From: Pochonia chlamydosporia 170
Taxonomy: Eukaryota; Ascomycota; Sordariomycetes; Hypocreales; Clavicipitaceae
NCBI RefSeq assembly: GCF_001653235.2
Contig: NW_019154046.1
Span: 62,001-126,000 of the forward strand
Length of the DNA: 64,000 nucleotides
Direction of reading: 5' to 3'
This document shows, piece by piece, positions 13,485-39,482 of the stretch. How positions within the stretch are numbered: position 1 is the stretch's first letter; each line of letters starts with the position of its first letter. Below the pieces are notes generated by a model. That model made no database searches and was not told where the DNA came from. It saw only the letters and a list, made by a program, of their open reading frames with translations. The position numbers were made by a program, and so were the translations under genes.

Positions 13485-14853
13485 CTATTGTATCCTACCA
13501 GCCTCAGTTGTCTCATCTCTTGCCTCTTTCAAGAACGGCACCAGTGATGTTCCACCTGTTCCCGTTAACTCTTGCTTACTGTTCTTATCTGCTGAGGCGC
13601 TTGCAAGATTCTTCCTTGCTTTCTCTGCTGGCGCTTGCTTTGAGGGTAGGATTATGTAACGAGTCACAATCTGAATGTGTTTGTCACGAAAGCTCCCTAG
13701 AACATCAACAGCAGCAACATAGGCGGCACGCAGGTCCTCCTCAGTGGCTGGAGAGTTGAGGACAGCTTCCCGGATGCTGCCTAGATTTCCAATATACTCT
13801 AGAAACCGCCTATGAGGCCCCGGCATGTACTCTCGAACCTCATCATGAAAACTCTTCTGGCCTTTGCTTCCGTGAGAGAAGTGCTCGACGCCCAGGATAA
13901 TGTCAAAGAACTGAATGAGTGAGCTTTGCCCATTGCTTCCACCTCTCAATTGCCTCCATTCCCCCTTGCCGTCTCCTTCGTCGTAGAATATGCCTCGTGG
14001 GAGGCCAGCATGTTGCATGTTTTTGCTCCCAGCCAAAAATGGTCGAATTTGATGATAAAAGACCGACGGGTCGCACCCTTCGTACATTCTTCCTAGTAGC
14101 GTGCTGACCATTTGTATGCAGGCTTTCAACTCCCGCAAAGCGCTGGTTATCACTGGATAGTTTTTGTCCGAGATGGCTGCTATTGCGCCAATCATGGTTT
14201 GGATAATACCTGCAGCTTGGGATTCCATGGCGACGCTGAGCATCATGAACCATACCTCGTCTTTGGTTCCTGTAAACGAGGCGATTACGTCGAGATCGTT
14301 GACTTCAGAAAAACTATTCTCGTTCTTGGATGTGAAGTTCCAGAGATTAGTAGCTGCGTAGGAAACTCCTGGTGGCATTTCCACATGGGCTGCTATTTCA
14401 AGAAATGGAATGCTAATCTGTGGTGGGAGTATCTACAGTTGATTAGATACCGCAGAGTAAGAATACAGTTCTCTGCCGGCTATTACTTACCTCTTCAGGC
14501 TCATCACCACCCCAGGTATGTGCGCTGGTTATATAGGCGAGCATTACATATGCTCGTCGCCACTCTGCCTCAGACCTCAGTCGCCCGGTAGACAGGATAG
14601 GCAGTTGCGAAACTGCCTCTCTAATTGTGCCATTTTGTATATGGGCCGGCAGGTGCTGCAGAATGAACTCCCATGGTGTGTAATAACCATCGGCCAGCAC
14701 TTTGGGCATGCTTTTTTCCGGAAGAAACGCATTGCATGTGATGGCAAACTTGGACAAGCCAACCGAAGCACTATTATGCACTGATCGTGATGTGTGTCTC
14801 GCAATGATTGGGGCCATAATGCGAGTTGTTTTGTAAACTATGCCTGTATACAA
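13485..14853 (-). CDS. Indoleamine 2,3-dioxygenase
   Basis: Two exons (14853-14491 and 14417-13485; 73-bp intron, GTAAGT...CACAG, phase 0) encode 431 aa, the usual size of fungal IDO. The enzyme opens the indole ring of L-tryptophan with O2 to give N-formylkynurenine, using heme. Recognisable blocks in order: YYTPWEFI, LPILSTGRL, ISIPFLEIAAH, MPPGVSYAATNLWNF, FTGTKDEVWF, the invariant MYEGCDPSVFYHQIRPFLAGSKN, WRQLRGGSNGQSS, and DKHIQIVTRYI, whose His (about residue 368) corresponds to the proximal heme ligand. The first 12-35 residues are not conserved; Met13 is an alternative start. It is the first enzyme of the kynurenine route encoded by the neighbouring cluster, and its promoter contains four TTCCG words within 22 bp at 15156-15177. 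Confidence 0.9.
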
Positions 14854-15155
14854 TAGGGTACCGTGGGCGACTGTGCGTGCTTACAGATCGATGAGAGATA
14901 TTGGAGCTCTTATGTTGTAGTGCCAAATTTTGTCTAATTTGGTACTGAACAAAATATACCTTCTCGGCACAAGAGATGTTGGTCGATACGTTAACACTTT
15001 AATGGTTGTTTCGTCTTGCACCTTTGAACGATGTCGAAACAACTTGACATAGTTTAATAAACGTAGTCACGGAACTACATAGGCTGTGTGGAACGTGTCA
15101 TTTCATCTGTGTATTGGCAGGTGATGTCAAGGCCGAAATTGATCATGGGATTTCA

Positions 15156-15177
15156 TTCCGTTCCGATTCCGGTTCCG
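15156..15177 (-). promoter_or_regulatory. TTCCG cluster in the IDO promoter
   Basis: Four TTCCG pentamers lie at 15156, 15161, 15167 and 15173, spaced 5-6 bp, roughly 300 bp upstream of the dioxygenase start. The CCG triplet is the half-site bound by Zn2Cys6 regulators. The same arrangement occurs upstream of most other genes in the 13-39 kb cluster. Confidence 0.55.
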
Positions 15178-15466: not shown

Positions 15467-17190
15467 CTACTTGCTTGAGCGATGCAAACCCGTAACTTTA
15501 TCTTGCTTAGCTTTCTTCTCAGAAATCTGCTGCATTTTCAACAGTTTCTTCTTCTGATTTTTGCTCAATGCTGCCCCTGGATTGCTTTGTGTACATTGCC
15601 CTTGTACTTGCAACCCAGCCCTTCCATTGCTCACTGCCTTTTTCACCGTACCTTGCCACTGTAACGGACGTAGTGCCATGAACTCCTTTACCGTCTCATC
15701 TGTCACCTCAACCCGTCGTTGTTGGAAGGCTTGAACATATCTTTGGACGTAATCAATACAAATGGCTTTAAGCTATGCAAGGTTTGGTCAATGTCGTCGT
15801 GCACAGCGCAAGGGTGTTTGTCCACTTACCTCTCCAGTAAGCAGCTTGCCACTATTGTAGTCTTCTTTGACACAACCTAGTTCTTCATCACTTTCCATGA
15901 AAAACTCAAGGTATTGATAAGAAACATCAACTGAGGCATCGCCCCCCTTTTCTCGGTGCTCCTCTACACTTTCTCTGCCCCCGGAAAACGCATACCTTGA
16001 GCAGGATTGTCAGTTTGAGGGTGTACACGCAACCCGGGAACACTCACTTGTTAATCTTGGTTTTAATATTTTTGGGTGTATCGTTCAAGAAAATGGCAGA
16101 TTTATCGTCGCTGGCAGACATTTTGGACCCGGGGCCTTGAAGTGCATCTAGGAATCGCATGTAGATGGAGCAAGGTTTGGCGATGTGCAATCCGGCGGCG
16201 CAATCCCTGGTCAGGCGAAAGTAAGGGTCTTGGTCGATTGCACACGGAATCAAGCATGGAATTTTGGAGCTGATGGATATATCCGAACCAAAAATGTGCG
16301 GGTACGAAGATGCAAAGGCAGCTGCACCTTGGATGCTCGGAAAGAAAATCTTTCCAATCGCAGAGTCGCCGTTAAAACCAAAGACGGCCCTGGCGGTATT
16401 GTACGTAACCTTTTTCGAGAATCGAATTATGTTCTCGTAGAATGCACCTCCGACGTACTCGAAGTCAGAGAAGATAAAGGTCTTGTTCTTGTTAAAGCCA
16501 CAAGCAATGATATCTTTTGCATTAGCCTTGCCATAGGCTATAGTTTCGTCGACAGTCTTTTTGGGAGAGAAGAGAAACTTTTCGTCTTTATCGCGACATG
16601 TTAGAATCCAGTATATAACGGCCATTGAGGTGAGCTAGACTAACCATCTGTCAACATAATAACCAGAGCCACATCAAAGACCTCTTGTAACCACCTATTT
16701 TAAGCATCAGTTGCCAAGGCATTAAAATGGATGTGACAACAGCATCATACTTGACAAAGTCAAAAACCAGACTGTGGCCAACATGCATGCTGTCGCTGCT
16801 TGGGCCTCTCCCAGTGTAGAGAAAAAAGGGTTCTTTCTGCACTATGATTAAGATACGTTCGAGTCAGGCTCCATTGAAACTCACACGTTCATAAAGATCC
16901 AGAATATGAGATAAATCCCTATGACTGAAGGCGATCCGTCTCCTCAGAAACCTGTGAGGTTTGCATCCCGTCACCCTCTCAAACCGTTCTAGCAGTGCAT
17001 CATCAATTAACTTGGTGCCAAATTCTTCTACCAGCCTACGATAATCGATGGCTTTAGCTTTTCCGTCCGAGTCCAAGTCCCCTGCAACGGACCATGGGTT
17101 GACATCTTGTTTAGTGCTCTCGGTGGGCGGTAAATTGTCCTCAACCGGGGCCGAGCCAAGAGGTCTTTCCGGGAGTGTAAATTGAGCCAT
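15467..17190 (-). CDS. Tryptophanyl-tRNA synthetase, cytosolic type, divergent copy
   Basis: Six exons (17190-16885, 16836-16751, 16694-16645, 16585-16048, 15995-15830, 15772-15467; introns 48-59 bp) total 1,452 nt and encode 483 aa. It is a class I synthetase of the eukaryotic cytosolic kind: [30 protein letters not shown] (HIGH equivalent, HVGH at 120-123), [20 protein letters not shown], and GSKMSASDD (KMSKS equivalent, about 302-306), then [13 protein letters not shown]. Both catalytic signatures are intact, so adenylation should work. Several otherwise near-invariant active-site neighbours differ from the human and yeast enzymes as I remember them: HLIPF is HSLVF, VPLVIQ is VALVIM (human Gln194, which contacts the indole NH, is Met144 here), PALLHS is PCSIYM, and FFPALQG is FLDALQG. 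A housekeeping enzyme would not be expected to carry these. The position between IDO and an arylamine acetyltransferase, and the shared TTCCG promoter motif, point to a pathway-specific copy. Confidence 0.9.
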
Positions 17191-17342
17191 CGCTAATGGG
17201 AAATCAAGCAGGATTGAAGAGACCCTATGCAGGGCGATCCTGAAGCTCTAGTCATAGGACACTGATTGCACAGCACGGGGGTTAATATGAGCCTCCTTTT
17301 CTAAGTATCAACTAGACCCGCCGTCCCCTACTAGGTAATGGT

Positions 17343-17436
17343 TTCCGGCGTATTCGAAGAAGGCTGCACGTAATTATAACCAAAGGCATTACGTAGTGTA
17401 TGAGTTTCTTCCGTTCCGTGTCAAGCCATGCTTCCG
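17343..17436 (-). promoter_or_regulatory. TTCCG group upstream of the tryptophanyl-tRNA synthetase
   Basis: TTCCG occurs at 17343, as an exact tandem TTCCGTTCCG at 17409-17418, and again at 17432, i.e. about 155-245 bp upstream of the synthetase start. This is the same word that clusters in front of the catabolic genes and suggests that the synthetase is expressed with them. Confidence 0.5.
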
Positions 17437-17466: not shown

Positions 17467-17561
17467 AAAATAACCGCTAGGTCATTTGGTCTACAAAAGG
17501 GAACGCTCCGGGGACCACTCCGCTAATGCAGAGAGATAGTACAGGTTATATTCCGTTGACA
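17467..17561 (+). repeat. Direct repeat, copy A (about 95 bp)
   Basis: This segment (from AATAACCGCTAGGTCATTTG to TATATTCCGTTGACAC) recurs at 17780-17875 with roughly ten changes. The two copies are about 313 bp apart in the space between the synthetase and the acetyltransferase genes. No terminal inverted repeats are seen, so the origin (solo repeat of a retroelement, or local duplication) is open. Confidence 0.6.
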
Positions 17562-17779: not shown

Positions 17780-17875
17780 GAAATAATCGCTAGGTTATTT
17801 AGTCTAGCCAAAGGGAACGCTCTGGGGAATGCTCCGCTAATGCAGAGAGATGGTACAGATTATATTCCGTTAACA
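17780..17875 (+). repeat. Direct repeat, copy B, apparently RIP-mutated
   Basis: Compared with copy A, most changes in this copy are C to T or G to A (CCGC to TCGC, GTCATT to GTTATT, TTGG to TTAG, CTCCGG to CTCTGG, CAGGT to CAGAT, GTTGAC to GTTAAC). That direction is the mark of RIP acting on duplicated DNA. Confidence 0.55.
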
Positions 17876-18043: not shown

Positions 18044-19033
18044 TTACACCGCTACCGCGGCTACAGTGTCCCTTATAGCCCGTTGGTTCTCTTCAGTCAG
18101 ACTAATGCCAAAATATCTCCGTATTGTGTCTATCCTCTCGTCTTCACTCTCAAATACTTTCTGCCATTGCTGAGTGCCATTCTTGCACCACTTGAAGGTG
18201 TTGCCATGAATAATGAGTACACCGTTGACCGAGCTGCCAACCTCTGAAGAATCAGCACTGCTCTGTAGGCAGGCATCACCAGACTTCAGATTGGGATCAG
18301 TCATGTCTTTGGTAGTAAACATGGCACAGACGACCTTGTATGTGAAAAAACTCCTGGGACTTCTGGAGGGGGACAGGTTCATGACAACAATGTCTTCGGG
18401 GAAAAGCTCGGTGTCCAGAAAGCAGTACTGCGGCACCCAGCTCTTCCGGTGGCCAGCTCGGTGCTCGTATATCCAGTACTTTTGCTCTCGCCGTGTGGCT
18501 TGTGGAATATGGCTGTGGTTCAGCCGCAGATCGCCTATTCCTGAGTGAGTTTGAATTTGTTCATGACGCAGCTCCAAGGGGCGCACAGGGCACCTTGAAC
18601 CAAAGCAAACGTCCACTGCGTAGCGGGCACCTCCTACAGTGACAATGTTTAGACAGTGAGTGAGACCGCCGTACTTGGCCAGGATCGTGTCGTATACTCT
18701 GGCTGCAACCATGTAAGCGTCAAACCCCAACGAGAAAAGGACGCTATGAAAGAACGAATTGTTTTCCATGCAGTAGCCCCCTCGCCTTTTGACTACGATT
18801 TTTTCATAAAGGCGGTCTGCATTCACATCGATGACACGGTGCCATGAGTAATGCAGCGTGAGGTTCTCGAAAGGTATTGTGGCCAGCTGATGATGTTGCA
18901 ACCGGAACAAGAATTGGAGTTGTTCATCTGTAGTGAGGTCGGTAGCACTAAGCTTTTGATATGCTGGTGGGAAGCCTATACGCTCAAAGTATTTTTGTAG
19001 TTGGGGTTTGCTGTATATTTGTTTGGCTTCCAT
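18044..19033 (-). CDS. Arylamine N-acetyltransferase
   Basis: An intronless frame of 329 aa. The cysteine-protease-like catalytic triad is present: Cys88 in RRGGYCMENN, His126 in GLTHCLNIV and Asp141 in YAVDVCFG. The N-terminal FERIGF, the PFENLTLHY block and the RGGYC motif are standard for the family. The enzyme transfers an acyl group from acyl-CoA to aromatic amines; fungal members can use malonyl-CoA and detoxify 2-aminophenol-type amines (known for Fusarium). Here the likely substrates are anthranilate or its hydroxylated products made by the neighbouring kynurenine enzymes, which is inference. It is divergent from the FAD hydroxylase at 19686, sharing a 650-bp promoter with a five-fold CGGAA repeat. 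Confidence 0.9.
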   Translation of the reverse strand: MEAKQIYSKPQLQKYFERIGFPPAYQKLSATDLTTDEQLQFLFRLQHHQLATIPFENLTLHYSWHRVIDVNADRLYEKIVVKRRGGYCMENNSFFHSVLFSLGFDAYMVAARVYDTILAKYGGLTHCLNIVTVGGARYAVDVCFGSRCPVRPLELRHEQIQTHSGIGDLRLNHSHIPQATRREQKYWIYEHRAGHRKSWVPQYCFLDTELFPEDIVVMNLSPSRSPRSFFTYKVVCAMFTTKDMTDPNLKSGDACLQSSADSSEVGSSVNGVLIIHGNTFKWCKNGTQQWQKVFESEDERIDTIRRYFGISLTEENQRAIRDTVAAVAV

Positions 19034-19399: not shown

Positions 19400-19428
19400 C
19401 GGAAGCGGAAGCGGAAGCGGAAGCGGAA
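19400..19428. promoter_or_regulatory. Five-fold CGGAA repeat in the shared NAT/hydroxylase promoter
   Basis: CGGAA (TTCCG on the other strand) is repeated five times with a 6-bp period (19400, 19406, 19412, 19418, 19424). It lies 367 bp upstream of the acetyltransferase and 258 bp upstream of the divergent hydroxylase. It may be a simple hexamer microsatellite (GGAAGC) that also supplies arrays of CGG half-sites for a Zn2Cys6 factor. Confidence 0.55.
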
Positions 19429-19685: not shown

Positions 19686-21270
19686 ATGACAGTCGGAGGC
19701 TGGAAGCAGTTGGATATTGCTGTCATTGGAGGCGGTATTGGGGGACAGGCTGCGGCGACATCTTTGCGGCGACAAGGCCACAAAGTCACCATTTATGAGC
19801 GAGCAGATTTTGTCGGCGAAGTTGGCGCGTCCATCTCGTGTGCTGCGAATGGGACTAGATGGCTTGAAGATTGGAATGTCAACATCGAACTCGGCGATCC
19901 AGTTGTCCTCAAGAATCTAATCAGCCGCGACTGGAAGACGGGTGAACCCATCAACGTCTATGATCTCTCAAATTACAAGGAGAAATGGGGATATGTAAGT
20001 TCAGGCCCTTTATTCTAAACCGTTAATAAGACACTTAGTAACGTAACAATTTAGACGTACTACATGTTTCATCGGCAATACATGCACAAGATGCTCAAGG
20101 ATAGTGCTACCAATGAGCACGGAGAAGGCATTCCGGCCAAACTAGTCCTCAACCACAAGGTTAGCATAGCAGACAATCTACCGATCTCACATCTATTCTA
20201 ACTGGCTCCACAGGCGCAAAATGTCGACTTTGAAACCGGCGAGATCACATTCGCCAACGGAAATAAGGTGACGCACGACGCCATAATTGGTGCAGACGGC
20301 ATCGGTTCCCAGATTCGCAAAGTCATGGGAATTGAAACGGTCCGCAAACCTGCCACGTGCACATGTCTACATGCAAACGTGGATACAGAGAAGGCCGTAA
20401 AGCTTGGACTGGTAGACTATTCCGTGAATAGTGCCATTGAGTACTGGGGAGGCTATCACACGCACTTCAAGATTGTCCTCTCACCTTGTAACAGGGGCCG
20501 ACTGCTGTCATACTATTGCTTCTTCCCTCGTGAGGCTGGCGATCTGACAGCCCAGACGTGGGATCAGGAAGCCACAGTTGAGGAACTGCTGGCACCGTAC
20601 CCCGACCTCGACCGCAATGTGTTCAAGCATCTAGAGCAAGGATACGAAGTGCGGCCATGGCGATTGTGGCTGCACGAGCCCTATCCTTTTTGGCAGAAAG
20701 GCGTAGCTTGTCTGATGGGAGATGCAGCTCACCCAGTATGTAACGGCATTTCAATCGGATGTCTTTATCCTTCGATGTTTTACGTCGGAATTCTATACCA
20801 GATCTTCGAAACGCTAACTAGCTTATAGATGATGCCAGATCAGAGCCAAGGTGCCTGCCAAGCCATTGAGGATGCCGCTGCACTGGGTCTGGTGTTCAGC
20901 AAGGAGCACTTTAATGGCAATGTGAGGGATGCGTTGGAGATCTATGAGACAATCAGAAAGCCAAGAGGCACCAAGGTGCAAGCTGCGTCCGCCCGAGCTC
21001 GCTTGAATATTAATGAGCGCATCGGTAAATTTGTCACTTCCAAACTGAAATGCGAAGCAAAACACTGATATCGAGTTTACAGGCTTTTCCAGCAATACAG
21101 ACAACGAAGTGTTTGCAGTCCAAGATGAGGAGGACACATTAACTATTGACGAAATGAACAGGTAATTGCAAATCACGCTGGAAACAAGAACCTAGTCTAA
21201 CTGTCCTTGTAGGTATGACATGAAGGCACACGTGAGGGAGGTGGTGAAGAGCCGCCGTCAAGGATCTTAG
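19686..21270 (+). CDS. FAD-dependent aromatic monooxygenase (salicylate hydroxylase-like)
   Basis: Six exons (19686-19994, 20055-20159, 20214-20735, 20829-21024, 21083-21161, 21213-21270) sum to 1,269 nt, 422 aa. Class A flavoprotein monooxygenase motifs are complete: GxGxxG in IAVIGGGIGGQAAATSL near residue 12, the DG motif in IIGADGIGSQIRK, and the GD motif in CLMGDAAHPVMMPDQSQGACQAIEDAAAL. Such enzymes use NAD(P)H and O2 to hydroxylate benzoates and related acids, sometimes with decarboxylation. Within this cluster, anthranilate or an N-acyl anthranilate is the natural candidate substrate, and a gentisate-type ring cleavage enzyme lies nearby; the exact reaction cannot be read from sequence. 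It shares its promoter with the acetyltransferase. Confidence 0.85.
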
Positions 21271-21716: not shown

Positions 21717-24322
21717 TCACTGAAATCCCTTATTAGGCCATGAACTAGCATCAAACTCTCCGTCAAACAGCAAGTCACCTCCAAATAAAGGCAAACCTGT
21801 TCTTAGATAGGTATCGTCAACTGCAGGTGCTGTCATTGTTTGGCTGAGATGAGGTGCAATGCAAGCCGTGGGATTGGAGGTCGTCGGGAACGAACCTAGG
21901 CACAAAAGATTAGCTCAATTTGTACGTGAAAATACTCACTCATATCACAAAGGCATCTTCTTACTCCATTCTTCCACCAGCTGCAGCAGTCGTTGCAGAC
22001 ATGTGATGCATCGATCAATCAAGGTTATGCCATCTCCGATATGGCTGAGGGCTTCAATTGCTTTGCCCAAGACCTGCTTGCCATGTTCCAACTTGCGTTT
22101 GCTGCCGGGATCCTTCTCTGACTCATACTGAGGGCAAAGAAGGCTACCGAAAATGATGAGACCTGCATTAAAGACTGAAACGTCGTTAGGAACAGGCCCA
22201 TTGTGAAAGGAATGCGGTACGAGTCTCACTGTAGTAAATCGTAAACCACCATGACCCCAAGCACGACTTGCCAAGTCGCCGATTTCTGAGTACGCGATGA
22301 GTGAGTAAAATAATCTCTTCAGCCGATTGAATGTAGCAATTCCTTATGCTCTCCTCTGTTTGCTCCGAGGCACGTCGCGGTTGCAAGGGGTCTGTTGACT
22401 CTGGCAGTAGGGCCCTGGTTAGGAGTGGTCGGTGCAGGAGTAACTGCGTGTTGAGGTATCGCAATGTGAGAATGATGCGGTACCGTTCAACATCCGAAGA
22501 CTCAAGGGTTGCCTCTGAGCTTTCGGCTATGCTGCTAGAGGGAGTAAGAGACAAGCAGGTAGGCAAGGTGTAACGCCACTCATTCAACTCTTGTTGAAGT
22601 TGGAGGATTCGAGTAACCATACACACGGTTGAACGCTCTTCGCACCCGAGGTTGTGTCCGTAGAGGCCGCCCATGATTTTCCAGAGAATTTTGTACAGTT
22701 TTCTGGTGATATAGTTAGACAATTAGAAGATTAACACGGCTCGTGAGTCACTTGCATTGTCGCCGTGAAAAAGGCGACACTCTTAGATTCACCTAGCTCT
22801 CCTTGTATGGCAACGGGGAGTTCCAGCTGCACGTAGTCTTCATGGATTGTACTTGGACGGCCGTATGTCATGCTCAGGGATCTACTGCCACGTCAGAATC
22901 TTCACGAGGCAGGCTTTATGTGGAAGACGTACCGATCCAGCACAACGCAACCATACCAAGTGCGTTTTCTCATCTCTACTTCGATTGGTGGATGCGAACC
23001 TAAGTTCTGTTGCAAGTGAATTCCGATGGAAAGTGCTGCTTTGACAGCCAAGCCATGCGTAGCCCAGGTTTGAGCTGCTTTCTGAATGCCTTGTAGGTAC
23101 TGGCTAGTTAAGAGGAGATATTGGACTATGCATACTTTAGTGAATTATCATCCCGCCGTGGCCACTCAGTATTTGGTCTCACCGGTTTCGAGAGTAGCCC
23201 CAGCAAGCATCTGACTACCGCACAACTCCTGTGCTCGTCGATAGAATATCTCCGATTCCACAGTTTTGGCATTCTCCGCATCCTGACAACCTCCACACGA
23301 GGCCATTGCCAACATGATATTCAGCAGGGCCAGCCATGTCCGGCGCGCTCTGACCCGAAAATTATTCTTCTTCAGATTCTCGTAGGTTTCGAGAAATGAA
23401 GGCTCATGTATGTAAGGGAAAAGCATGCCAGTAGTAGAAAAGTAATGCCGAATCAATGTCCTCGTCCTATGATCAGGAGGAAGCTGGTTACAGCTACCTA
23501 TTTCTGTCCTTGACGGGCTACCAGGTATTAATCGTGATGGGTTGACCATGGCCCCAGTGTATTTCGTCCCTGTCGATGGGAACTTTAGTGAATCACGGAC
23601 GTAGCCTCTGCGAGCAACAACCTGAAAGATGATTCTCATGAGGGAGATGTTCGATGTAGGTCCTGCAGCAATACAGTTGCTTTCAGTCAGTAATCTGTTC
23701 AACACATGTGGATTGGTCAACTGCTTACCAAAACATCCGGGGTCGTTGTCATCAACCAGTGACACTGCCATACCATCGGTGTCGTTGACGTCTACTTGCT
23801 CCTCCGATGCTTGCGGCTGAACACTTACAATGAGTGCTCCATGGTTACTTGAACCGTCATCCTGAATATCAATGTCACCATCCTCAATTGATGGTGTCGG
23901 GCTGCTGCCTTCTCTAATGGCGCTCCTTCTCTCATTGATCTGACTCATGGCTAGGTGCTCAAGTACCCGAAGCCGCGACTCTAAATTCGTTATGACGCTA
24001 CAGGAGTCAGACAATTTCACACTTAAAATCTAGAAAATGGAACTGTTATGAGCCATACTCCTTGCTAATGATGAGATTGGAAGATGATAAGGGCATCTCG
24101 TATATGCATTCAAAGCCCATATTCTGGCACGATGAACATTTTGGACGGGCGCCATTGCACTGTATTGAGACTATTGATTAGAAGCACTTTCTCTCATGGT
24201 AAATGATTCGCTCCTACTCTAGATTTGCGAGTTCGGCATGCGTTGCATGCAAGCGCAGTCCGACGGCGTGTCGCTCTCAGGAAGATTTGATTATCTACGT
24301 CTCGTTGGGCGTCTTCAACCAT
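21717..24322 (-). CDS. Zn2Cys6 transcription factor with fungal-specific domain (cluster regulator candidate 1)
   Basis: Eight exons (24322-24218, 24159-24059, 23997-23183, 23125-22933, 22884-22756, 22702-22230, 22174-21965, 21895-21717) add to 2,205 nt, 734 aa, with all phases matching. The Zn2Cys6 binuclear cluster spans the first intron: ACNACRTRKSR, then CNGARPKCSSCQNMGFEC, followed by a coiled-coil-like linker (VITNLESRLRVLEHL). The middle-homology region is recognisable (PYIHEPSFLETY, QYLQGIQKAAQTWATHGLAVKAALSIG, RKRTWYGCVVLDRSLSMTYGRP). The intron 22755-22703 uses a GC donor (GCAAGT). Three TTCCG words sit 124-152 bp upstream of the start, so the regulator may control itself together with the cluster. 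It lies in the middle of the catabolic genes. The ATG at 24322 was chosen because it is the nearest in-frame Met before the zinc cluster. Confidence 0.85.
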
Positions 24323-24445: not shown

Positions 24446-24474
24446 TTCCGACGTTCCTTAGTTTCCGAATTCCG
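24446..24474 (-). promoter_or_regulatory. Three TTCCG words upstream of regulator 1
   Basis: TTCCG at 24446, 24463 and 24470 (the last two overlap in TTTCCGAATTCCGAG). They lie 124-152 bp upstream of the regulator start and downstream of the converging stop of the hydrolase gene, in the only intergenic space (324 bp) between the two. Confidence 0.5.
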
Positions 24475-24646: not shown

Positions 24647-25749
24647 TCAAGCAAAATCTACCCCATTCCGTAGTGTGCCAATGTCGCTAATGTTAACCTC
24701 CATAACCGTTCCAGGCACAAGGAATTTGGGAGGCTTCAAACCACCCCCGACACCTACATTCCGTCAGTTATTATCTCATCACGCGTCGTCCTCTACATGG
24801 TGCAAACGCCATACCTCCGGGGGTACCTGTCATAATAACGCTCCCCTTTTCCAAAGTAGTTCCAGTAGACAAGTATGAGACGAGATACGGGATGTTGAAT
24901 AAAAGATCATCGACTCTGGATGATTGTCTCAGCTCGCCATCCACCACCGTCCGTAGCTGGAGTGATGCTGGGTCGGGAATAAGACTGCTACCGACTAGTA
25001 CGGGACCCATTGGTGCAAATGTGTCGAACCCTTTTGAAAATCCCCATTGTGGAACGGGACCTGCTAAAGTGGGATCCCGCTGAAGCTTGCGAGACGAGAT
25101 GTCGTTGCCGACAGTGTAGGCCGCAACGTAGTCGAGCGCATCCTCCTCGCTTACGTCCTTTGCATCCTTTCCAATGATGACGCACTGTGTATTAAGAGTT
25201 CTTAGCAAGCGTCAATCTTTTTGGGTAAAAGGGGATTTTGGCGTCCGTACTAGCTCTCCTTCATAGTCGGCCTGGTTATCTTGGGCGACCTTGGGGACAA
25301 CAATATTGGCATCGTGGTCATGGACGGTATACGAGCTTTTACAAAACATGAAGGGGAACGGGGGAGGTTTTCGTCCCGTTTCCGCAACTAGGAATCACGT
25401 TAGCTTTTTCTTAATCCGAATCCAACAGAACTGCCCGGAGGGTATCGCCCGAGGGTTTGTGGTGATAGTTACTGTGAGTTGCATAGTTTAGCCCAATGCA
25501 GCGTACAATGGGCACATTTGATCGGGTGAGTGGTCCAAGCAATTTTTTTACGGTGACAATTTCGTCCGTCACAGTAGTCGCCCCCGTAACATCGTAGAGG
25601 TCATTGCCCTTGATTATTTTTGCTTGTAATTTTGTATCCTCTGTAGTAGCTCCGAGGTCGAAACCAGGGGACGGTAGAATAGGCTCGCCGTGGAGGACGC
25701 GGCCATCGGTAGCCACGAAACGAATGAGTCGTTGCCAGGCGACCTTCAT
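24647..25749 (-). CDS. Fumarylacetoacetate hydrolase-family enzyme (fumaryl-/maleylpyruvate hydrolase-like)
   Basis: Four exons (25749-25473, 25387-25251, 25184-24815, 24753-24647) sum to 891 nt, 296 aa, a normal length for the single-domain FAH family. Motifs: IVRCIGLNYATH near the end of the N-terminal part, the metal-binding DYEGEL, VIIGKDAKDVSEEDALDYVAAYTVGND, FSKGFDTFAPMGP, and KGSVIMTGTPGGV near the end. The family hydrolyses C-C bonds in beta-diketo acids such as fumarylpyruvate, the product after gentisate cleavage. It is divergently transcribed from the cupin dioxygenase at 26134 with only 384 bp between the starts, which supports a joint role in ring-fission product breakdown. Confidence 0.88.
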
Positions 25750-26133: not shown

Positions 26134-27208
26134 ATGAGTTCACAAGCTTTTACAGATGGCGATGCCTTGGTGCAAGCACTGGGCGATGTAAACGTTTCGC
26201 CCTTGTGGGCACAGATGGCGCGTCTGAATCCCGCTGCTCCTAATCCAACTACAAGACCATTTATTTGGAGATATGAACAAATTCGACCGTACCTCTTGAG
26301 TGCAGGGCAGCTCATCAAGGAAGAACAAGCAGAGAGACGAGTTCTTATGCTCGTGAACCCTGAAAGAAGTAAGCTAAAGAGGTGCAGAATTTCAACAGGG
26401 TCTGGCTAATCACTAGAGATAGCTGCTCCGTATACAACCGATACGTTATACGCTGGGCTACAGCTGGTCATGCCCTACGAAACAGCCCCGGCACATCGAC
26501 ACTCAGCCTTTGCTGTACGTTTCATTATTGAGGGTCGGGGTGGCTTCACTGCAGTTCAAGGACAGCGTGTGGCGATGAATCCTCGCGATGTCATCATCAC
26601 GCCGACCTGGAATTGGCATGATCATGGTAAGAAGGGGGCTAATGAAGAAGGAGGTGACGATGAGCCTATTATTTGGCTCGATGGTCTCGATTTGCCTGAG
26701 TTTGTACACTTCCCAGTGCATTTCAACGAGCACTATTCGGAATCGAGATATCCCGCCAAGGATGTCCAAGATTCTCCCATTGTCTTTCCATGGGCTGAAA
26801 TGCAGCGGCGCCTGGATGAACAAAAGGGTGCATGGGTTACAGCTCCGTATCTCAAGAAGGACGGCAGCGAATGTAAGTTGGAACGCTAGCCTCCCACGTA
26901 GGGTTCTATTGCTAAGCTTGTGCCATCTTGCAGTGAGTCTAACTATTGGGGTATTGGCTGAGCGCCTAGAGGCAACCTCCCAGTCTCAGGAAGTTCGGGA
27001 GACGGCGTCTTCTGTCTATCATGTAATTGAGGGTAGTGGGAGTACGATCATTAACGGAAAGAAGACTGAATGGAAGCAAGGCGACACGTTTTGCATTCCA
27101 GCTTGGAGCCAATATCAACACTCTGCCGAGTCTGACAGAGTCTATCTGTATCGCTTCGACGATAAACCAATGCTCAAGGCCCTAGGCATGTACCGGGTAG
27201 AGGCTTAG
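26134..27208 (+). CDS. Gentisate 1,2-dioxygenase-like bicupin
   Basis: Three exons (26134-26368, 26417-26872, 26934-27208) sum to 966 nt, 321 aa, near the usual 340. The first cupin carries the metal ligands in [16 protein letters not shown] and a later His in [10 protein letters not shown]; the [13 protein letters not shown] block between the domains is typical of gentisate dioxygenases. The second cupin ([11 protein letters not shown]) lacks a clear metal triad, as in the family. The Fe(II) enzyme opens gentisate (2,5-dihydroxybenzoate) to maleylpyruvate; related enzymes accept substituted gentisates or 5-amino/5-hydroxy analogues, so the true substrate here could be a hydroxyanthranilate-derived compound (inference). 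Divergent to the FAH-family hydrolase. Confidence 0.85.
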
Positions 27209-28030: not shown

Positions 28031-28953
28031 ATGGCCTTGTCTCAAAATACCATGGAAGGCCTCAAATATGAGTGTTACAAGTATGGAAACCATGACCGCC
28101 AACGTGTGGGTGTCTGGCATCGCCCAACGACTCAGACAGAGGGGTGTTGGATCATGTACGCCACCATTAGCAATTGCTCCCAGCTAGCCGTTACTGACGA
28201 TTTCAAAGATACATACACGGAGGCGCTTGGCGTGACCCGCGAAATGGGCTAGAGGACTTTCTGCCATCCATTGTGCAGCTGATCACATCTACCGAGATAG
28301 ATCATTCCAAAATACGCGGCTTTGCAAGTATCGACTATAATCTATCTCCGCACCCGGAACTGTATCAAGATCCAGCTGAGGTTCCTACACATAAGTACAG
28401 AGGTGCCAAACACCCAGATCACATTTTGGACATTCGTACCGCCTTGAAGTTCCTCCAACCGAAGATACAACTGATCGATGGGTACGTGCTAATAGGGCAT
28501 TCTGCTGGCGCAACCTTGGCTTATCAGGCGGTGATGGATCAAGCGGCCCTCAGCAATGAGAGAGAGACATTTGAGATCCCATTACCAGGAGCCGTACTCG
28601 GTATTTCTGGTATATATGACCTTGTTGGACTGAACAGTCGACTCAGCAATGGTGCAGCTGGTCTTGATTTTATCAGAGGTGCATTTGGGAGTGATGAGGA
28701 CGAGTGGATACGAGCTTCTCCTGCCAGAAGTAATGAAAATCTCGGCAACAGCTGGTCGGGCTACTCCCTTTTGGCATACTCCCCAGATGATGGCCTCGTT
28801 GATAGTCCTGAGCTGGAGGCAATGGCAAAGAAGCTTGAGGCAGACGGCCTGCCGTTTGACGTTGTTACAGATTTGACTGGGGAGCACGATTTCGTATGGC
28901 AACAGGGGAGCCAGATGGTTCGTCTTGTTTCAAAAGTTCTCGACCATATATGA
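28031..28953 (+). CDS. Kynurenine formamidase (alpha/beta hydrolase)
   Basis: Two exons (28031-28155 and 28209-28953; 53-bp intron GTACGC...AAAG, phase 2) give 289 aa. The splice rebuilds the family's oxyanion-hole motif IIYIHGGAWRDP, which is otherwise split. Other landmarks: GFASIDYNLSPHPE, HPDHILDIRTALKFL, the nucleophile Ser in LIGHSAGATLA, GISGIYDLVGLNSR, GAFGSDEDEW and the C-terminal catalytic His in LTGEHDFVW. The enzyme hydrolyses N-formylkynurenine to kynurenine and formate, directly after IDO. The size and motif order match the yeast BNA7-type protein. It is followed on the same strand by the amino acid permease. Confidence 0.88.
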
Positions 28954-29752: not shown

Positions 29753-31243
29753 ATGGACACCGTCAAAGAGAAAGTCAGTCACGCATTGGATTCAAAAGAC
29801 GTCCACCAGTCCATCATTCAGGGCTACGCCGCAGACATCATCCACGTGGACCAGATATCTGATCGAGACGACCAGCAAGTGCGTCTCGAGAAACAAAAGA
29901 CCACTGATGGAGAAGCTCACTTCCACCGCCTTGGATGGAAACGTCTTACCATTGTGTTGATTGTCGAATCCATCGCTCTTGGTAGTCTAAGCCTGCCTGC
30001 TGCATTTGCATCCCTCGGCATGGTGGCCGGTGTGATATGTTGTGTTGGCGTGGGACTATTGGCTATCTACACTAGTCATATTATCGGCCTCGTGAAGCTC
30101 AAGTTTCCCAAAGTGACTCACTATGGCGATGCTATAGGGTTACTGCTCGGAAAGCCTGGATATGAGGTGGCATGCGCCATGTTCACCGTGCAACTCGTCC
30201 TGCTCATTGGATCGCATTGCCTCACAGGCACCATTGCTTTTACGCACATCACCGAAACGAGCATCTGCTCCATTGTTTTTGGAGTCATCTCTGCTGTTCT
30301 GCTCTTGATACTCGCCATACCACCCACTTTCTCGGAAATGGCCATTCTTGGATACATCGACTTTGCATCCATCCTCGCCGCCATCGCTGTTACCATTATT
30401 GGCACGGGAGTCAGGTCCAACCAGTTGGAACAGGCTAACTGGTCCGCCTGGCCAAAGCCTGGAATGGGTCTTGTGGACGGTTTTCTCGCCATCAGCAACA
30501 TCGTGTTTGCGTACAGCTTTGCAATGTGCGAGTTCTCTTTTCTGGACGAGATGCACACGCCCAAGGACTATATTAAGGCAGTTTGGGCCCTCGGAATCAC
30601 GCAAATTGTCATTTATACTCTGACGGGCTCTCTGATATATGCCTTTGTTGGCGTTGGTGTCAAATCTCCAGCACTTCTCTCAGCAGGCGGCACTCTGTCG
30701 AAAGTGGCTTTTGGTGTTGCCCTGCCCGTGATCTTCATCTCAGGTTCCATCAACACAACAGTGCTTGGTCGATACTTGCATGGGCGTCTGTTCCAGAACT
30801 CGATTGCCCGTTATGTGAATACGCCAAAAGGTTGGGCTACTTGGCTAGGTGTGGTTGCCATTGTGACTGTCTTGGCATTCATCGCAGCGGAGTCTATCCC
30901 CATCTTTTACGATCTTTTGGCCATCTGTGGATCGCTCTTCGTCTCGGGGTTTTCTTTCTATATCCCTGCTATCATGTGGTATAAGTTAATCAGGGAGGGT
31001 AGCTGGCACTCCCGAAGAAACTTGACTGATGCCGCCCTGTGTGCTGTGTGCTTTGTAATTGGGCTCGTCATCCTAGGTTTTGGGACATATGCAAGCATCG
31101 TCGACATTGTAAGTCGCTCCCCTCCCCCCCTTTTCCCCCGGTCCACCATGAGATTGATGGAATCTTTCCTAACCGTATTTTAGAAAAAACACTTTAGTAC
31201 TGGAGCCATTGGAAGACCGTTTACATGCCAAAAAGCTGGTTAA
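29753..31243 (+). CDS. Amino acid permease, AAAP family
   Basis: Exon 29753-31108 and a short last exon 31184-31243 (intron 75 bp, GTAAGT...TTTAG, phase 0) give 471 aa. The last exon supplies the family-typical C-terminus GAIGRPFTC. After a hydrophilic N-terminus of about 60 residues there are roughly eleven hydrophobic hel­ices; the first carries ALGSLSLPAAFASLGMVAG, characteristic of the amino acid/auxin permease family, and WSAWPKPGMGLVDGFLAISNIVFAYSF is the fungal neutral amino acid permease block. It should sit in the plasma membrane or vacuole and move amino acids with protons. In this cluster tryptophan or kynurenine is the plausible cargo (inference). Confidence 0.88.
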
Positions 31244-31741: not shown

Positions 31742-33131
31742 TCATGCTGCCATCTCAAGACCTAGCGCCTTCCTGAATATCCGCATAAATCTCCATACAT
31801 CCTCAAACCTCGTATACAGCGGCACAGGAGCAACGCGAATCACCCCCGGCTTACGCTTATCACACAACACACCGCTTTCTTCCAATACCTGGGAAGCCGA
31901 CTCCAACAGCCCCTCACGCAGCAATACACTAAGTTGCGTCCCCCTCTGCAGCGGATCTCTCGGTGATATTATACTGAAAAGCGGTCCCCTTCCATCATCC
32001 TGAGCCTGATTTATTATCTCGTCAAGCAGGTATTCTGCATACGCAGTAAGCACCAGCGCCTTGTCTCGCAGCTCCTTCATGCAAGTCTTCCCAAAAACAG
32101 ACAACGCACCAGACAGACTAGCCAGGTCGATGGCTGATGGATTCGACGTCTGGTACCCTGCCGCACCTGGCGTTGGGATAAATTTGTTGTCCATGTTGAA
32201 GCGGACCGATTTGTCACCACCATACCAGCCTGTCAGACGAGGGCGGTACGACGCCTTATCACCCGTCAGGTCAACCGTGCCGTATCTCTCGTGAATAAAG
32301 GCGCCGGCGATGGCACCCGGGCCAGCATTGATGTACTTGTAGGTGCACCAACAGGCAAAGTCAACGTTCCAGTCATGCAGTTTTAACTCTACATTTCCGG
32401 CTGCATGGGCTAGATCCCAGCCAACGATGATACCGTTTGCCTTAGCATGGGCTGTAATTTTGGGAATGTCGAAAAGTTGGCCTGAGTAATACTGTATACC
32501 GGGCAGCAACAGAAGGGCTGTATCATGTGCATTTTCATCAATCGTCTTCAGTATAAGCTCAGTCGATATCAGGCTGCCTTTAGGATTGTCAGGCTCAATC
32601 TTAATCATACATGTCGCTGGGTCCAGACCATGCCACGCAATCTGGCTTTCAATGGCGTAGTAATCGCTCGGAAACGGCCTCCATTCCAGTATAATCTTGA
32701 AGCGCTTTGCATCTGGCTTGTAGAAGCTCGCCATTAGAAGGTGCAGGTTGATTGTCAGGGTATTCATAATAACAATCTCGTGGGGCGAGGAACCAACGAG
32801 ATCTGCCGACTTTTTGGCGCAATCTTCAGCCAGATCCTGCCATGGAGTAAGTGGCGAGTTAGAGATTTTCGTATCGTGGCCCTTTACACCGATACTGGCC
32901 CAGGTTTCAAACTGGGCATTGACATACTCTCGAACTGCCCTCGGTTGCGCCCCAAGAGAGTTTCCCACAAAATAGAGGCACTGTTGGTCATCTTCTGAAG
33001 TCTGGTTCTCACCAGTGCCATTGACGAGGGTAGTCTGGACTGTAGCAATATTAGCCCTGTGAGACGCAGACGAAAGTACTAGGGCTCGAGTCAGGTTTCG
33101 AGCGTCTCACCAGGAATAGATCCATCCAGGG

Positions 33132-33152
33132 CAAGGCTCGAACCCACTACAC
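33132..33152 (+). repeat. hAT left terminal inverted repeat
   Basis: 21 bp, beginning CAAGGCTCGAACCC; pairs with 36113-36133 with one mismatch at position 12. Confidence 0.9.
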
Positions 33153-33423
33153 TGGATAGCCACGTGGACCATCCATAAATGGTCCATCTCTATTAAATCC
33201 ATCTTGTCGGCGCTCAGATTACATAATATCCATTACATTCGTGCTTGAAATGGATGTAATTGATGTATTTAGGTGGATTTAGGGTAGGTTTTGAGGATAT
33301 TTTCTGACCCAGTATTTCAGCGGTCGGCAGGCGTATTTTTGCACGAAATTGATCTTAAATCGAGACACTTAAAACCCTGGTCAGCAATGCCGATCACTCC
33401 ACAATTCATCTTCCACTGTCGGC

Positions 33424-35909: not shown

Positions 35910-36112
35910 TTTAGTACTGCAGCAGACGGGGGAAGAGTTAATAACGAAATATGAAAGTGAGGCCGAATAGGCCTGATCCGGTGAACAGTCTCCAAAGTGC
36001 ACTTGTACATACATGTGTACATCCACTCCACTCAACTTGGAAGTGTATCACATCCACCAAGTAGAGGTCTGATATGTAGCACATCCACTCGACTTGGCCC
36101 AAATGTGGATGG

Positions 36113-36133
36113 GTGTAGTGGTTTCGAGCCTTG
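36113..36133 (-). repeat. hAT right terminal inverted repeat
   Basis: 21 bp, ending GGTTTCGAGCCTTG; inverted copy of the left end. It is followed directly by the target-site duplication ATCCAGGG. Confidence 0.9.
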
Positions 36134-36307
36134 ATCCAGGGCCCTTTTTTTCAGCGATGAGACTGATGGAAGGACAAATTCACTCCGAAGATGTCGTAGT
36201 TTATCCTGCGCGTCCAAGTGTCGTGCAAAAGTAACAGAGTTAGCATCATTTGGGAACCCGGCTGGAGAACCATTTCGCACGCTTTCGACGTATTTCAAAA
36301 GTTCCAT

Positions 36308-36922
36308 GTCGTCAGTAGTTTGTCTCATGGAGTTGTTCACGTTGATTGACGAAAAACAACAGCAGATGATGCACGATTTGTAGGGTTCCACCGTTGGCTT
36401 GCAGGCTTAAAATAACCAACTTGAACCATCGCTTCCAGAATACCACGTACTTTTCTTCATTGCAAGCCTTTTATCTCAAATATGCTAATATTCAACTGAG
36501 ACTCGTCAGATTTCCAGAGACGTCCCACTTTGGCGTGTTGCGGCCCCAACGGCTTCATTCTGCTTGGAGTTGATTGGCTGCGATGTTGCTTTCGGAATAC
36601 AAATTGGGCTTTCTGTTCCGCTCCGTTCCGTAATCTTTCCGCCGATGATCAGTCACCAGAATTGGCTTAGGAAAGCCTTAAAGCCGGGGGACGGCACTTG
36701 CTCCGGACTCTTGATCCAACCTCTCGGTCAACTCATCCTCGCCGTCTAAACCAGTCTAAATCCCTACCTACCCTCGTTGTACTTTGTACATGTCCAAGTA
36801 TTGCCGGAAGCACGAGGCATAAAGGAAAGAGTGCTCCGTACATACCGTACGGTATGGATGGACTGCGCATTACGGGCTGCGCATTACGGGCTTCGGTTCC
36901 TCAGGCTAAGAATGTCAGCGTC
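36308..36922. promoter_or_regulatory. Divergent promoter of kynureninase and regulator 2 with TTCCG cluster
   Basis: CGGAA at 36593 is followed by TTCCG at 36616, CTCCG at 36621, TTCCG at 36626 and TTCCG at 36637, all within 50 bp and near the middle of the 615-bp space between the two divergent starts (about 290-335 bp from kynureninase and 280-330 bp from the regulator). Nearer the regulator, 36841-36856 is a perfect 16-bp palindrome (CATACCGTACGGTATG) and 36863-36890 holds a 14-bp unit CTGCGCATTACGGG repeated twice in tandem. Confidence 0.55.
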
Positions 36923-39482
36923 ATGGCCGATCCGCCTGCCAGCGTTGCACGGGCTTCCGGCGACAAGCGACCGATGCCATCCGTCGCCAATGAACCAGCT
37001 AAGCGTCGTGCTCCGTATGCACAAAGGGCATGTGATGCTTGTCGCAGGCGCAAAGGCCGTTGCAACGGGGCTAAGCCTTGTGATTACTGCATCGGCCGCT
37101 CGTTTAACTGCTGCTACTCCATCAGTTCTCATGACAGTCGGCCAGTCAAAACGCGGCAGAGTTCGTCCAAAACTTCTACCATTGCTAGCAAGTGGACGCC
37201 GGAGTAAGTTGGATACTTGGGGATGCCTTACTGGGTCGATTTTTCATGCATGGTGTGACTAACTCAACTTTGCAGTAGCAGCTCTATTAATGGCCTCGTT
37301 GCCACAATCCAGGGACACTTGGATACTCTTGCCTCTCATGTCAGAACCGATGCTACGGTCCAAGACCAAACTGGGGACGACGCCTTTGCTCGGGGTAGCA
37401 TGACAAGACCGACTCAAGAGCCGGCAGTGAGATATGGACTTTCCGCATTCACATCCGCAGCTACGCCCATATCGCCCTCATCATCAACCACTGACAAGTC
37501 ATCAAAGCGACCCAAAGGCGTCAAGTATCACGGGCCGACCAGTCCAGCATACAGCCTGGTGGCTGCACAGATCCAGTTCGAGGACCGAAGGATCAATGTA
37601 GGCGTCAGTCCAAGCAGCAAACTAAGGAGCGCTACATGTGACAAGAGCGACAACGAAAGCGACAGCGATCAAGAAGACGATGGTCATTCAAAAGACGAAA
37701 ATTCCATTGCCAGTCGCCCATTGGCGAGACCAAGTACGCACCAAGCGCTCTTCCAATCACTTCACCTATTCCACACTCGCGAAACCATTCGACTCGTGCG
37801 TGTGTACCACGAAGTTATTGGCGAGCTGCATCCCATTTGCAATATTGACGCCCTCGTGGAGCTGATACGACAGATACATTCGACCAGTAGTGGTGGCCTT
37901 TCTGGAAAAGGGGAGCGCGAGGTGGCCGTGGATGTGAATGACTTGTTGGAATTGAACCTCGGTCTGGCTATTGCGCTAACCGCTGAGGCCGCCACCTCAT
38001 CTACTATTGCCAACACCATATACAAGCAATGTCGAGGCTACATCGATACCAAGATAACGAGCCGCTCAAAGTCTATCAAGGATGTTGTTGTAACGCTGAT
38101 GCTGGTTCGTACTTTTCTATTCTTCCAATCCACATTTTTGGAGTTTGGACGTTAATATTTCTCAACTCGTAGGGACTGTACTATTTCTTCAAGTGTGAGT
38201 CTCAACTCGCTTGGCGCATGTGTGGTCTAGCTGGCCGCATGGCAATGGAACTTGGATTGCACAGCCTAGAAGCGTCACAGTTCGACCAACAGAGCAGCGA
38301 ATGGCAGCAAGAGTTGGTAACATTGTCCTGTACGCTGTTGGTCCTCGATCGTCAATGGAGCGCCGCAACAGGATATCCATCTAATTTCAAAGAAACGGAT
38401 TTTGAAATGGCCAAAGTTTCATTGGTAATAACAACTGACTTCTGTCCTACGACTCCCCAAACCGACAATATTAACAACGGGAGCAGGCACATACGCCCTA
38501 CTTGAAAGAGATGATGAAGTTTACCCTCATCAGCCACAAATTCAACGAACCAATCTCCCAAGTTGCTCGGGGCGAATGCATCGAGGAAGATGACATTGAC
38601 TTGATCAACTTCCAAGTCGAAAATTGGCGGAAACGAGCCCTTGAGAACCAAAGCTTTGTTCACCCCGAACAGTGGGAGTCAAGTCTGTCTGCACAACCGC
38701 CCCCGTGGACCACCCTCTTGTACCTACGCGCAAACGCCGTTCGAGGGATCCTCATGCGTCCTTTTTATCTCTCCAGCCAAGGCAGCCACGTTGCCGCTAA
38801 GAAGGTATGGCCGGGGTTGGAACTCGTCTCGGACTCGCTCAACATTTTATCCATTCTTGACAACACTACCGACATCTACAAGAAGCAACACCCCAACTTC
38901 CAACACTACGTAGCTTCATCATGCGCTCTACTTTTCCTCATAATTATATACACCAAGAAGCACGGCATCACACCGCCAGAATCCAAACACGAGTTCCTGC
39001 AAACGGTGAAGCAGAATTTCGACATTGCTCTCAAGCTCTCGGCTGCATACAGCCAATCATCGCGCGCATCACGGGAGCTATGGAAGCGTTTGCAGTCTGT
39101 AGGAGATCCTTTATTCCGCTGGGGCGTTCTACATGAGGAGACGCTGCGAGATGCTTCTGGGGCAGGTACATCATCGAATACTCGGCCCGCCGATTCCGAT
39201 TCGAGAATGCCCAAAGCGAAGAGACAAGACGTTGTAACAGAAGACACGGGGTGGGCCAATCAAATAACTTCAAAGAATAGGTCATCTGCCGTGCCTGGGG
39301 ATGGCCTTTTGTTTCAGGACATGTCCATCTCGAACACGATGGCGACGTCAACTGGTCCGGAAGGGCCTGCTTCGATGAACGAGCTCATCGAGAATGATTT
39401 TGGGTTTGATTCATTGGATCCTCTAATTTTAGGGTGGCCGATGAAATCGACTGGAGCGTGGTTCTCGGATGGCTTATTTTAG
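36923..39482 (+). CDS. Zn2Cys6 transcription factor with fungal-specific domain (cluster regulator candidate 2)
   Basis: Four exons (36923-37203, 37276-38104, 38173-38424, 38487-39482) sum to 2,358 nt, 785 aa. The zinc cluster RACDACRRRKGRCNGAKPCDYCIGRSFNC lies near residues 35-63 (CxxC-x6-C-x5-CxxC-x6-C). A Ser/Asp-rich linker follows, and the middle-homology region shows FFKCESQLAWRMCGLAGRMAMELGLH and CTLLVLDRQWSAATGYP. ATG 36923 is the first in-frame Met after a frame without conserved residues. It is divergent from kynureninase and shares the TTCCG-rich promoter, so it is a good candidate for a pathway activator or for self-control; the partner regulator is at 24322-21717. Confidence 0.87.

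Follow-up and report, generated by a model that had tools for sequence, protein, structure and literature searches.

A cluster of 26 kb (positions 13485..39482) in the genome of Pochonia chlamydosporia 170 carries genes for tryptophan and aromatic-ring degradation together with an extra tryptophanyl-tRNA synthetase (TrpRS) which, judged from its phylogeny, is separate in descent from the ordinary copy of the same genome. All positions refer to the window, that is, the whole stretch of 64,000 nucleotides analyzed. The promoters of the cluster are crowded with CGGAA half-sites, an observation that is new beyond the original prediction made on this DNA. The explanation put forward here, which we hold to be evenly balanced between right and wrong, is that of a putative inducible cluster leading from tryptophan to anthranilate and on to central metabolism, run by a Zn2Cys6 factor via TTCCG/CGGAA repeats, with a dedicated extra TrpRS in the same regulon.

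The cluster genes were called from gene models and Pfam profile scans of 30 window sequences, which represent a part of the ORFs. On the minus strand were found indoleamine 2,3-dioxygenase (IDO; 13485..14817, two exons, 424 aa; PF01231, 494 bits), the extra cytosolic-type TrpRS (15467..17190, six exons, 483 aa), an arylamine N-acyltransferase (NAT; 18044..19033, one exon, 329 aa; PF00797), the Zn2Cys6 transcription factor REG1 (~21945..24322; PF04082; a partial model, with the zinc cluster recognized by eye), an acylpyruvase-like member of the FAA-hydrolase family (FAH; 24647..25749, four exons, 296 aa; PF01557) and the kynureninase (KYNU; PF22580, TIGR01814), whose gene body downstream of an insertion spans 31742..33131. 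The plus strand encodes an FAD-dependent hydroxylase (FMO; 19686..21270, six exons, 422 aa; PF01494), a gentisate 1,2-dioxygenase-like double cupin (GDO; 26134..27208, three exons, 321 aa), a kynurenine-formamidase-like alpha/beta hydrolase (KFA; 28031..28953, two exons, 289 aa; HGGAW and GHSAG seen by eye), an AAAP amino-acid permease (29753..31243, two exons, 471 aa; PF01490) and a second Zn2Cys6 factor, REG2 (36923..39482), whose zinc-cluster cysteines were seen by eye in the translation and which gave no Pfam match in the three fragments scanned, one of them out of frame. All 11 genes named in the original prediction were recovered, the formamidase being the least certain. Its statement that no unrelated host gene intervenes holds in that none was recognized, although the span does contain a mobile element.

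Regarding the individual enzymes, the FAD hydroxylase is identical to the database protein P0121, whose public-record name is salicylate hydroxylase; its closest solved structure is a decarboxylative vanillate 1-hydroxylase, with salicylate monooxygenases ranking lower. The double cupin resembles gentisate 1,2-dioxygenase. NAT is 48-56% identical to the named homologues compared (NAT2/NAT3 of Fusarium and Thelonectria, with NAT1 outside the comparison), and the cluster IDO is 61% identical to its C6a paralogue in the same genome. The sole solved relative of the formamidase-like hydrolase is 1VKH, a weak match (E 3.7e-6). Within the set leading from tryptophan to anthranilate, IDO is firm, the formamidase weak by profile, and the kynureninase firm but interrupted. 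No lactamase was detected among the 30 window sequences scanned, and the idea of a biosynthetic cluster was rejected since none of them encoded a core enzyme. A described fungal cluster of like gene content was not found in the literature searched, from which subscription papers were mostly out of reach; the original prediction, which knew of none, was not contradicted there.

The interruption of the kynureninase had been overlooked in the original prediction; the gene is broken in this strain. A hAT transposon of 3,002 bp (33132-36133, plus strand) lies in exon 1 and splits about 65 N-terminal codons (36328-36134, minus strand) off the remaining gene. The 8-bp target duplication ATCCAGGG flanks both ends, the terminal repeats are identical at 20 of 21 positions, and the hAT dimerisation domain PF05699 is encoded. 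The first 601 bases of the element occur in four identical copies genome-wide, the cluster copy included, which points to a recent insertion. A kynureninase paralogue on C6a, 76% identical, has motif pairs in its own promoter.

The class I signatures of the cluster TrpRS, MHVGH and KMSAS, are intact by eye and all six exons are open. Its best solved relatives are the yeast and human TrpRS (yeast, E 1.8e-149 over residues 20-422). By signatures and full-length similarity it is of the cytosolic eukaryotic type, with predicted charging activity. The original prediction had proposed a dedicated synthetase; a second full cytosolic TrpRS was looked for elsewhere in the genome and found at C2:2776315-2778131 (492 aa), 67% identical to the cluster copy. 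This rules out the cluster TrpRS as the sole cytosolic one, and the contrary case, in which this would be the genome's sole cytosolic TrpRS and would occupy the same place in every relative while the catabolic genes are absent, does not apply. The C2 protein is 88-91% identical to five Metarhizium proteins. As for the remaining tryptophanyl- and tyrosyl-tRNA synthetase loci, TyrRS is encoded on C3 and on C4, and a TrpRS of bacterial type, scanned in one part, at C3:2136455-2137597.

A first TrpRS tree was built with 119 rows, after the proteins P0002, P0064 and P0081 (>600 aa) had been dropped from the 120 matches listed, and a more careful one with a manual selection of 33 of the 119. The cluster TrpRS and P0001 of Dactylonectria macrodidyma formed one clade (support 100/100), and the topology grouping the cluster copy with the C2 copy was rejected (p-AU 0.00012); these two results rule out a recent local duplication of the C2 gene. 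The cluster TrpRS carries ten substitutions at columns where at least 95% of the 117 other rows share one residue. At such conserved columns P0001 has 12 substitutions, and the other rows a median of 1 and a maximum of 10. Five of the ten (S221D, H228F, F242Y, L287S and H289Y) are common to P0001, and 17 residues, T236A and S286C included, are shared by the two proteins and present in no more than 2% of the others. Some of the substitutions flank the presumed tryptophan-pocket Gln, as placed by alignment, and the strand before KMSAS. The branch of the cluster TrpRS measures 0.52-0.60. Both TrpRS branches are long, a circumstance that can mislead trees.

In D. macrodidyma, P0001 (TrpRS), P0123 (GDO), P0244 (IDO) and P0348 (AAAP), with identities to the cluster proteins of 78, 82, 80 and 70%, are all listed on a contig of 947,865 bp, their membership being deduced from the equal listed size and not from gene order or distance. 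These data support the recurrence, on one contig in a second fungal family, of the association of TrpRS with IDO, cupin and permease. The conserved association for which the original prediction suggested a search is supported, for these four proteins, by one other family. Neither NAT nor FMO was seen on that contig among the matches listed (120 rows for FMO, where a more divergent FMO, or one hidden inside a different 90% cluster, might go unnoticed). The ordinary TrpRS of D. macrodidyma was not seen among the matches listed, and P0001 is perhaps not supernumerary in that species. Coverage of the protein database is low: the matches listed lacked Pochonia's own TrpRS, NAT and formamidase, and there were none at all for formamidase in whatever species, which makes such absences of little weight.

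Four of the cluster promoter regions contain exact motif pairs. The IDO promoter has a tandem TTCCG array of three overlapping pairs (15156..15177; half-sites 339-356 bp upstream of the ATG), the TrpRS promoter the pair TTCCGTTCCG (17409..17418; 219 bp upstream, with seven half-sites within 700 bp), the shared NAT/FMO promoter a CGGAA tandem of five half-sites in four overlapping pairs (19400..19428), and the REG1 promoter the pair TTCCGAATTCCG (24463..24474; 141 bp upstream). Exact pairs therefore precede five of the 11 genes: IDO, TrpRS, NAT, FMO and REG1. Half-sites without an exact pair were counted before KFA (6), KYNU (6) and REG2 (5), and no pair and few half-sites before FAH (1), GDO (1) and AAAP (2). 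The KYNU/REG2 promoter carries four TTCCG half-sites at 36593..36641. The motif was spotted by eye and the statistics came afterwards: of 511 five-mers tested in the promoters of the cluster, CGGAA ranked first, with 37 occurrences against an expected 8.9 (p 1.9e-12 uncorrected), and none of 20,000 random placements reached either the 37 half-sites (null mean 8.7) or the four pair places (0.058 expected). No tandem pair was present in the promoters of the flanking genes, where the intergenic half-site density was 2.0 per kb. This enrichment of a shared cis element over background supports co-regulation of the cluster; neither it nor the recurrence in a second family was available to the original prediction.

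Genome-wide, 276 pairs were counted in 44.2 Mb, and the control pattern read backwards was commoner (712), so the case for the motif rests on the location of its copies and not on rarity. The longer form TTCCGCCTTCCG has five copies, its backwards-read control three. Two of the five lie between the IDO and kynureninase genes on C6, unlinked to the cluster, and another 654 bp upstream of a second formamidase-like gene; their presence in these promoters would tie the TrpRS to ordinary tryptophan catabolism. Of the remaining two, one is situated roughly 3 kb away from a bZIP gene and the other in a DNA-ligase region; the 10 ORFs scanned around them included no gene of the kynurenine pathway. Pairs are absent from the IDO promoters on C5, C10 and C6b. 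Upstream of the C2 TrpRS, the first 1 kb is devoid of half-sites but includes, at 134 bp, a TGAGTCA sequence, presumably a CPC1/GCN4 box.

In the proposed explanation, a Zn2Cys6 factor, probably REG1, would act through the TTCCG/CGGAA repeats; the AAAP permease would import tryptophan, and IDO, formamidase and kynureninase would convert it to anthranilate. The FAD hydroxylase, the gentisate-type dioxygenase and the FAA hydrolase would then hydroxylate, open and split the ring, and surplus arylamine would be acylated by NAT. The TrpRS would be made when the pathway is on and would keep tRNA-Trp charged while IDO lowers tryptophan. The shared promoter signals and the spare TrpRS suggest that the fungus protects its own translation during a tryptophan drain. 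The original prediction, which offered continued translation or tolerance of a tryptophan-like compound as the putative role of the synthetase, is supported in part. To our knowledge, housekeeping tRNA synthetases are rarely controlled by the catabolic pathway of their own amino acid. TrpRS induction as protection from self-inflicted tryptophan loss has been argued from a mammalian correlation, and fungi would offer a genetically simple test of such protection in tryptophan-destroying cells if the TrpRS were induced with IDO.

A different role for the TrpRS would be that of a resistant target: the cluster would degrade a poison resembling tryptophan or anthranilate, made by plants, bacteria or the fungus itself, and the additional enzyme would be insensitive to it, as in indolmycin producers. 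We consider this rather unlikely. It is consistent with the ten substitutions at conserved columns, five of them common to P0001, with the xenobiotic-type character of NAT and FAD hydroxylase, and with the precedent set by Streptomyces griseus, whose second TrpRS resists indolmycin (PMC6804068); but no gene for tryptophan-analogue biosynthesis was found among the 30 window sequences scanned, a part of the ORFs, and the shared motif links the TrpRS to ordinary tryptophan catabolism genes elsewhere. If true, it would suggest that root- and nematode-associated fungi encounter an as yet unknown compound resembling tryptophan.

The name of the FMO in public records and the gentisate dioxygenase-like cupin would also fit a salicylate/anthranilate cluster of a root-associated fungus, in which FMO, cupin and FAH break down salicylate via gentisate and the tryptophan genes are co-regulated, with the TrpRS as a minor passenger. 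FMO and cupin homologues occur on equal-sized contigs in four species (Cephalotrichum gorgonifer, Microdochium bolleyi, Clonostachys rosea and, on a second contig, D. macrodidyma), and Rss1 of Ustilago maydis unites salicylate and tryptophan degradation (PMC5082525). We nevertheless judge this improbable, given the motif pairs in the IDO and TrpRS promoters and a D. macrodidyma TrpRS contig that yielded IDO, cupin and AAAP, with FMO absent among the 120 matches listed. Finally, the long branch of the TrpRS and the interrupted kynureninase beside it could indicate a neutral duplicate, or a copy in decay, that has been caught up in the cluster; with six open exons, intact signatures, 78% identity to its other-family counterpart P0001 and promoter motifs of its own, this seems very improbable.

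In mammals, interferon-gamma induces IDO1 and WARS1 together. The cluster would share with this response the joint induction of IDO and TrpRS, and differs in that no common regulator or gene linkage unites the two systems; any likeness would be convergent. As a tentative and somewhat doubtful extension of the proposed explanation, the cluster might be an independent fungal counterpart of the mammalian pair, in which tryptophan would be drained deliberately, against nematode, plant or microbe, or for food, and a fast-evolving TrpRS under the same element would serve the fungus's own translation only.

Several microbial systems share parts of this content. The auxiliary TrpRS of S. griseus likewise exists besides an ordinary one, but it is bacterial and tied to an antibiotic, whereas the Pochonia enzyme is of eukaryotic type and lies beside catabolic genes, with no antibiotic known (PMC6804068). 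The Fusarium FDB1/FDB2 benzoxazolinone clusters are also of inducible xenobiotic type and include an arylamine N-acyltransferase; a term search of that paper gave no hit for kynureninase, IDO, gentisate or tRNA synthetase, and on these grounds an identity with the FDB2 cluster, guessed from NAT, seems unlikely (PMC4726666). The diagnostic members would be the N-malonyltransferase NAT1 for FDB2 and the lactamase MBL1 for FDB1; the named homologues listed for the Pochonia NAT are NAT2/NAT3. The U. maydis zinc-cluster activator Rss1 governs the degradation of both salicylate and tryptophan and responds to anthranilate, and normal growth on tryptophan requires the salicylate-hydroxylase-like Srg1 (PMC5082525). 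Both fungi have a binuclear zinc-cluster factor with tryptophan/salicylate genes, REG1 being a Zn2Cys6/PF04082 protein, but the U. maydis route is proposed to run via catechol, whereas the Pochonia cluster has a gentisate-type cupin; a term search found no mention of tRNA in that paper (PMC5082525). In Aspergillus fumigatus, the IDO gene idoB (Afu4g09830) and the kynureninase gene bna5 (Afu4g09840) are consecutively numbered, and the accessible part of the source mentions no TrpRS (PMC5786828). A similar content, as far as that part describes it, is found in Pochonia at C6a and C6b, where IDO and kynureninase are divergent and about 1-2 kb apart, whereas the cluster described here is larger and holds its IDO and kynureninase 17 kb apart.

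The window (C11:62001-126000) belongs to a genome of 44.2 Mb in 49 contigs from P. chlamydosporia, which is placed in the Clavicipitaceae, Hypocreales. Spliced models of the cluster genes (13485-39482) were intact for IDO, TrpRS, NAT, the FAD hydroxylase (FMO), the FAA hydrolase (FAH), the double cupin (GDO), the formamidase-like hydrolase (KFA) and the AAAP permease. Families were assigned by Pfam and solved relatives, and by NCBIfam for TrpRS and kynureninase. FMO was identical to P0121, a P. chlamydosporia 170 database entry, at 422/422 residues, and GDO matched P0122, a second such entry, at 99%. Two Zn2Cys6 regulators were present, one internal (REG1) and one at the right end (REG2). Judged by these families, the cluster can carry Trp to anthranilate and then open the ring. 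Outside it, a full-length protein-arginine deiminase domain, uncommon in fungi, was detected at 46793-48715 (PF03068, 407 bits), adjoined by a Zn2Cys6 regulator and a sulfatase.

Repeats of TTCCG ahead of several cluster genes were first spotted by eye and then tested. On both strands, TTCCG-N0-2-TTCCG occurred nine times (overlaps counted) at four places in the window: upstream of IDO, upstream of TrpRS, between NAT and FMO, and upstream of REG1. No pair was found in the flanks (13.4 kb left, 24.5 kb right), nor any exact pair upstream of FAH, GDO, KFA, AAAP, KYNU or REG2. Two similar repeated segments were also seen by eye upstream of the cluster TrpRS (17470-17560 and 17780-17870). Genome-wide, 276 pairs were counted versus 712 for the reversed pattern, the control of the tool; therefore, the pattern itself is not enriched in the genome and only its placement is notable. 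In eight cluster promoter segments, CGGAA ranked first of 511 five-mers (37 vs 8.9, p 1.9e-12, uncorrected and with non-independent tandem copies). When eight such segments were placed at random elsewhere in the genome, over 188 kb of its DNA, the mean was 8.7 half-sites and 0.058 pair places, and at least 37 half-sites or at least four places were each reached in 0/20,000 placements; this null excluded the pair-bearing C6a and C1 formamidase regions and included two other regions holding one. The genome-wide rate predicts about 0.03 pairs per 5.1 kb, and 19 half-sites were counted in 9,429 bp of hand-picked intergenic DNA of the flanks, a density of 2.0 per kb.

Beyond the window, 160 kb of fetched DNA contained just two pairs, both between the IDO and kynureninase genes of C6a, a locus outside the cluster. 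Their exact form, TTCCGCCTTCCG, has five genome copies (three for the reversed sequence): these two, one at 654 bp upstream of a second formamidase-like gene on C1, and two elsewhere. On C5, C10 and C6b, no exact pair preceded an IDO gene.

The original prediction called for a search for a second cytosolic TrpRS, and one was found at C2:2776315-2778131 (eukaryotic type, model of 492 aa, seven introns), so the cluster gene (17190-15467, minus strand) is an extra copy. The nearest relatives of the C2 protein among the rows listed were five from Metarhizium (88–91%). All five introns of the cluster gene lie, by eye, at positions common to the C2 gene; it therefore derives from an ordinary spliced fungal gene. 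No half-site was found within 1 kb in the C2 promoter; a TGAGTCA box, of CPC1/GCN4 type, lies at C2:2778281, 134 bp upstream. The two genes may thus answer to different signals.

The homologue search with the cluster TrpRS scored 7,993 candidates, 7,977 above threshold, and the best 120 of these 7,977 were listed. Among them the closest was P0001 from D. macrodidyma (Nectriaceae) at 78%, the others reaching at most 72%; the 120 rows contained neither another TrpRS of D. macrodidyma nor any from Fusarium. The cluster TrpRS and P0001 formed one fully supported clade on a long stem within Hypocreales, both in a 119-row tree and in a careful 33-row tree. Grouping the cluster protein with the C2 copy was rejected (p-AU 0.00012), as was a wider group that took in seven further copies from Clavicipitaceae as well (p-AU 9e-6), long branches being a caution for both that the tool itself gives.

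The database lists the longest contig for each protein, and a shared contig was read from equal size. P0001, the cupin P0123, the IDO P0244 and the permease P0348 of D. macrodidyma are each listed on a 947,865-bp contig, the last three with 82% (overall), 80% and 70% identity to the window proteins. Accidental presence of four such genes on one contig, as read from its size, is unlikely. Another D. macrodidyma FMO and cupin are both on a 2,130,175-bp contig. By equal size, IDO and permease relatives also occur together in a source labelled 'lgn', on contigs of 35,118 bp (99 and 93%) and 26,280 bp (87 and 82%). TrpRS thus recurs with IDO, cupin and permease in a second family. The 120-row listing that covered NAT contained none from D. 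macrodidyma. Neither this listing nor the one with the FMO and cupin rows gave a formamidase from any species.

The kynureninase body is well recognized (TIGR01814, 382 bits vs cut-off 246), and its first ~65 codons are cut off from it by a 3,002-bp hAT element (33132-36133) with 8-bp target duplications. The first 601 bases of the element gave 16 genome matches, full-length at 100% in four and at 99% in two, the cluster copy counted; the four copies identical over these bases suggest a young family in P. chlamydosporia. Given these matches, the insertion is probably young, and the kynureninase step of the cluster was probably functional until recently. A paralogue (76%) at C6:2491604-2492896 may replace it. 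A third IDO-kynureninase pair was observed at C6:2971043-2975681 and 2986132-2988427 (45%, 56%). A second NAT-like gene lies ~10–13 kb away, as does a haem-containing dehydratase (PF13816).

Near-invariant TrpRS columns were changed at 10 positions in the cluster protein and at 12 in P0001 (median 1 and largest 10 in the other rows), and five of the ten changes are common to P0001. This suggests an altered constraint. The changes may provide a tighter hold on Trp, in line with translation insurance, or may allow escape from an inhibitor, in line with resistance. We give insurance about an even chance and regard resistance as less likely. A pairing of IDO with TrpRS is familiar from the interferon-gamma response. 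In fungi, the zinc-cluster factor Rss1 of U. maydis is reported to govern a Trp degradation route and to sense anthranilate (PMC5082525). What is new here is a TrpRS that shares a promoter element with Trp-degrading genes.
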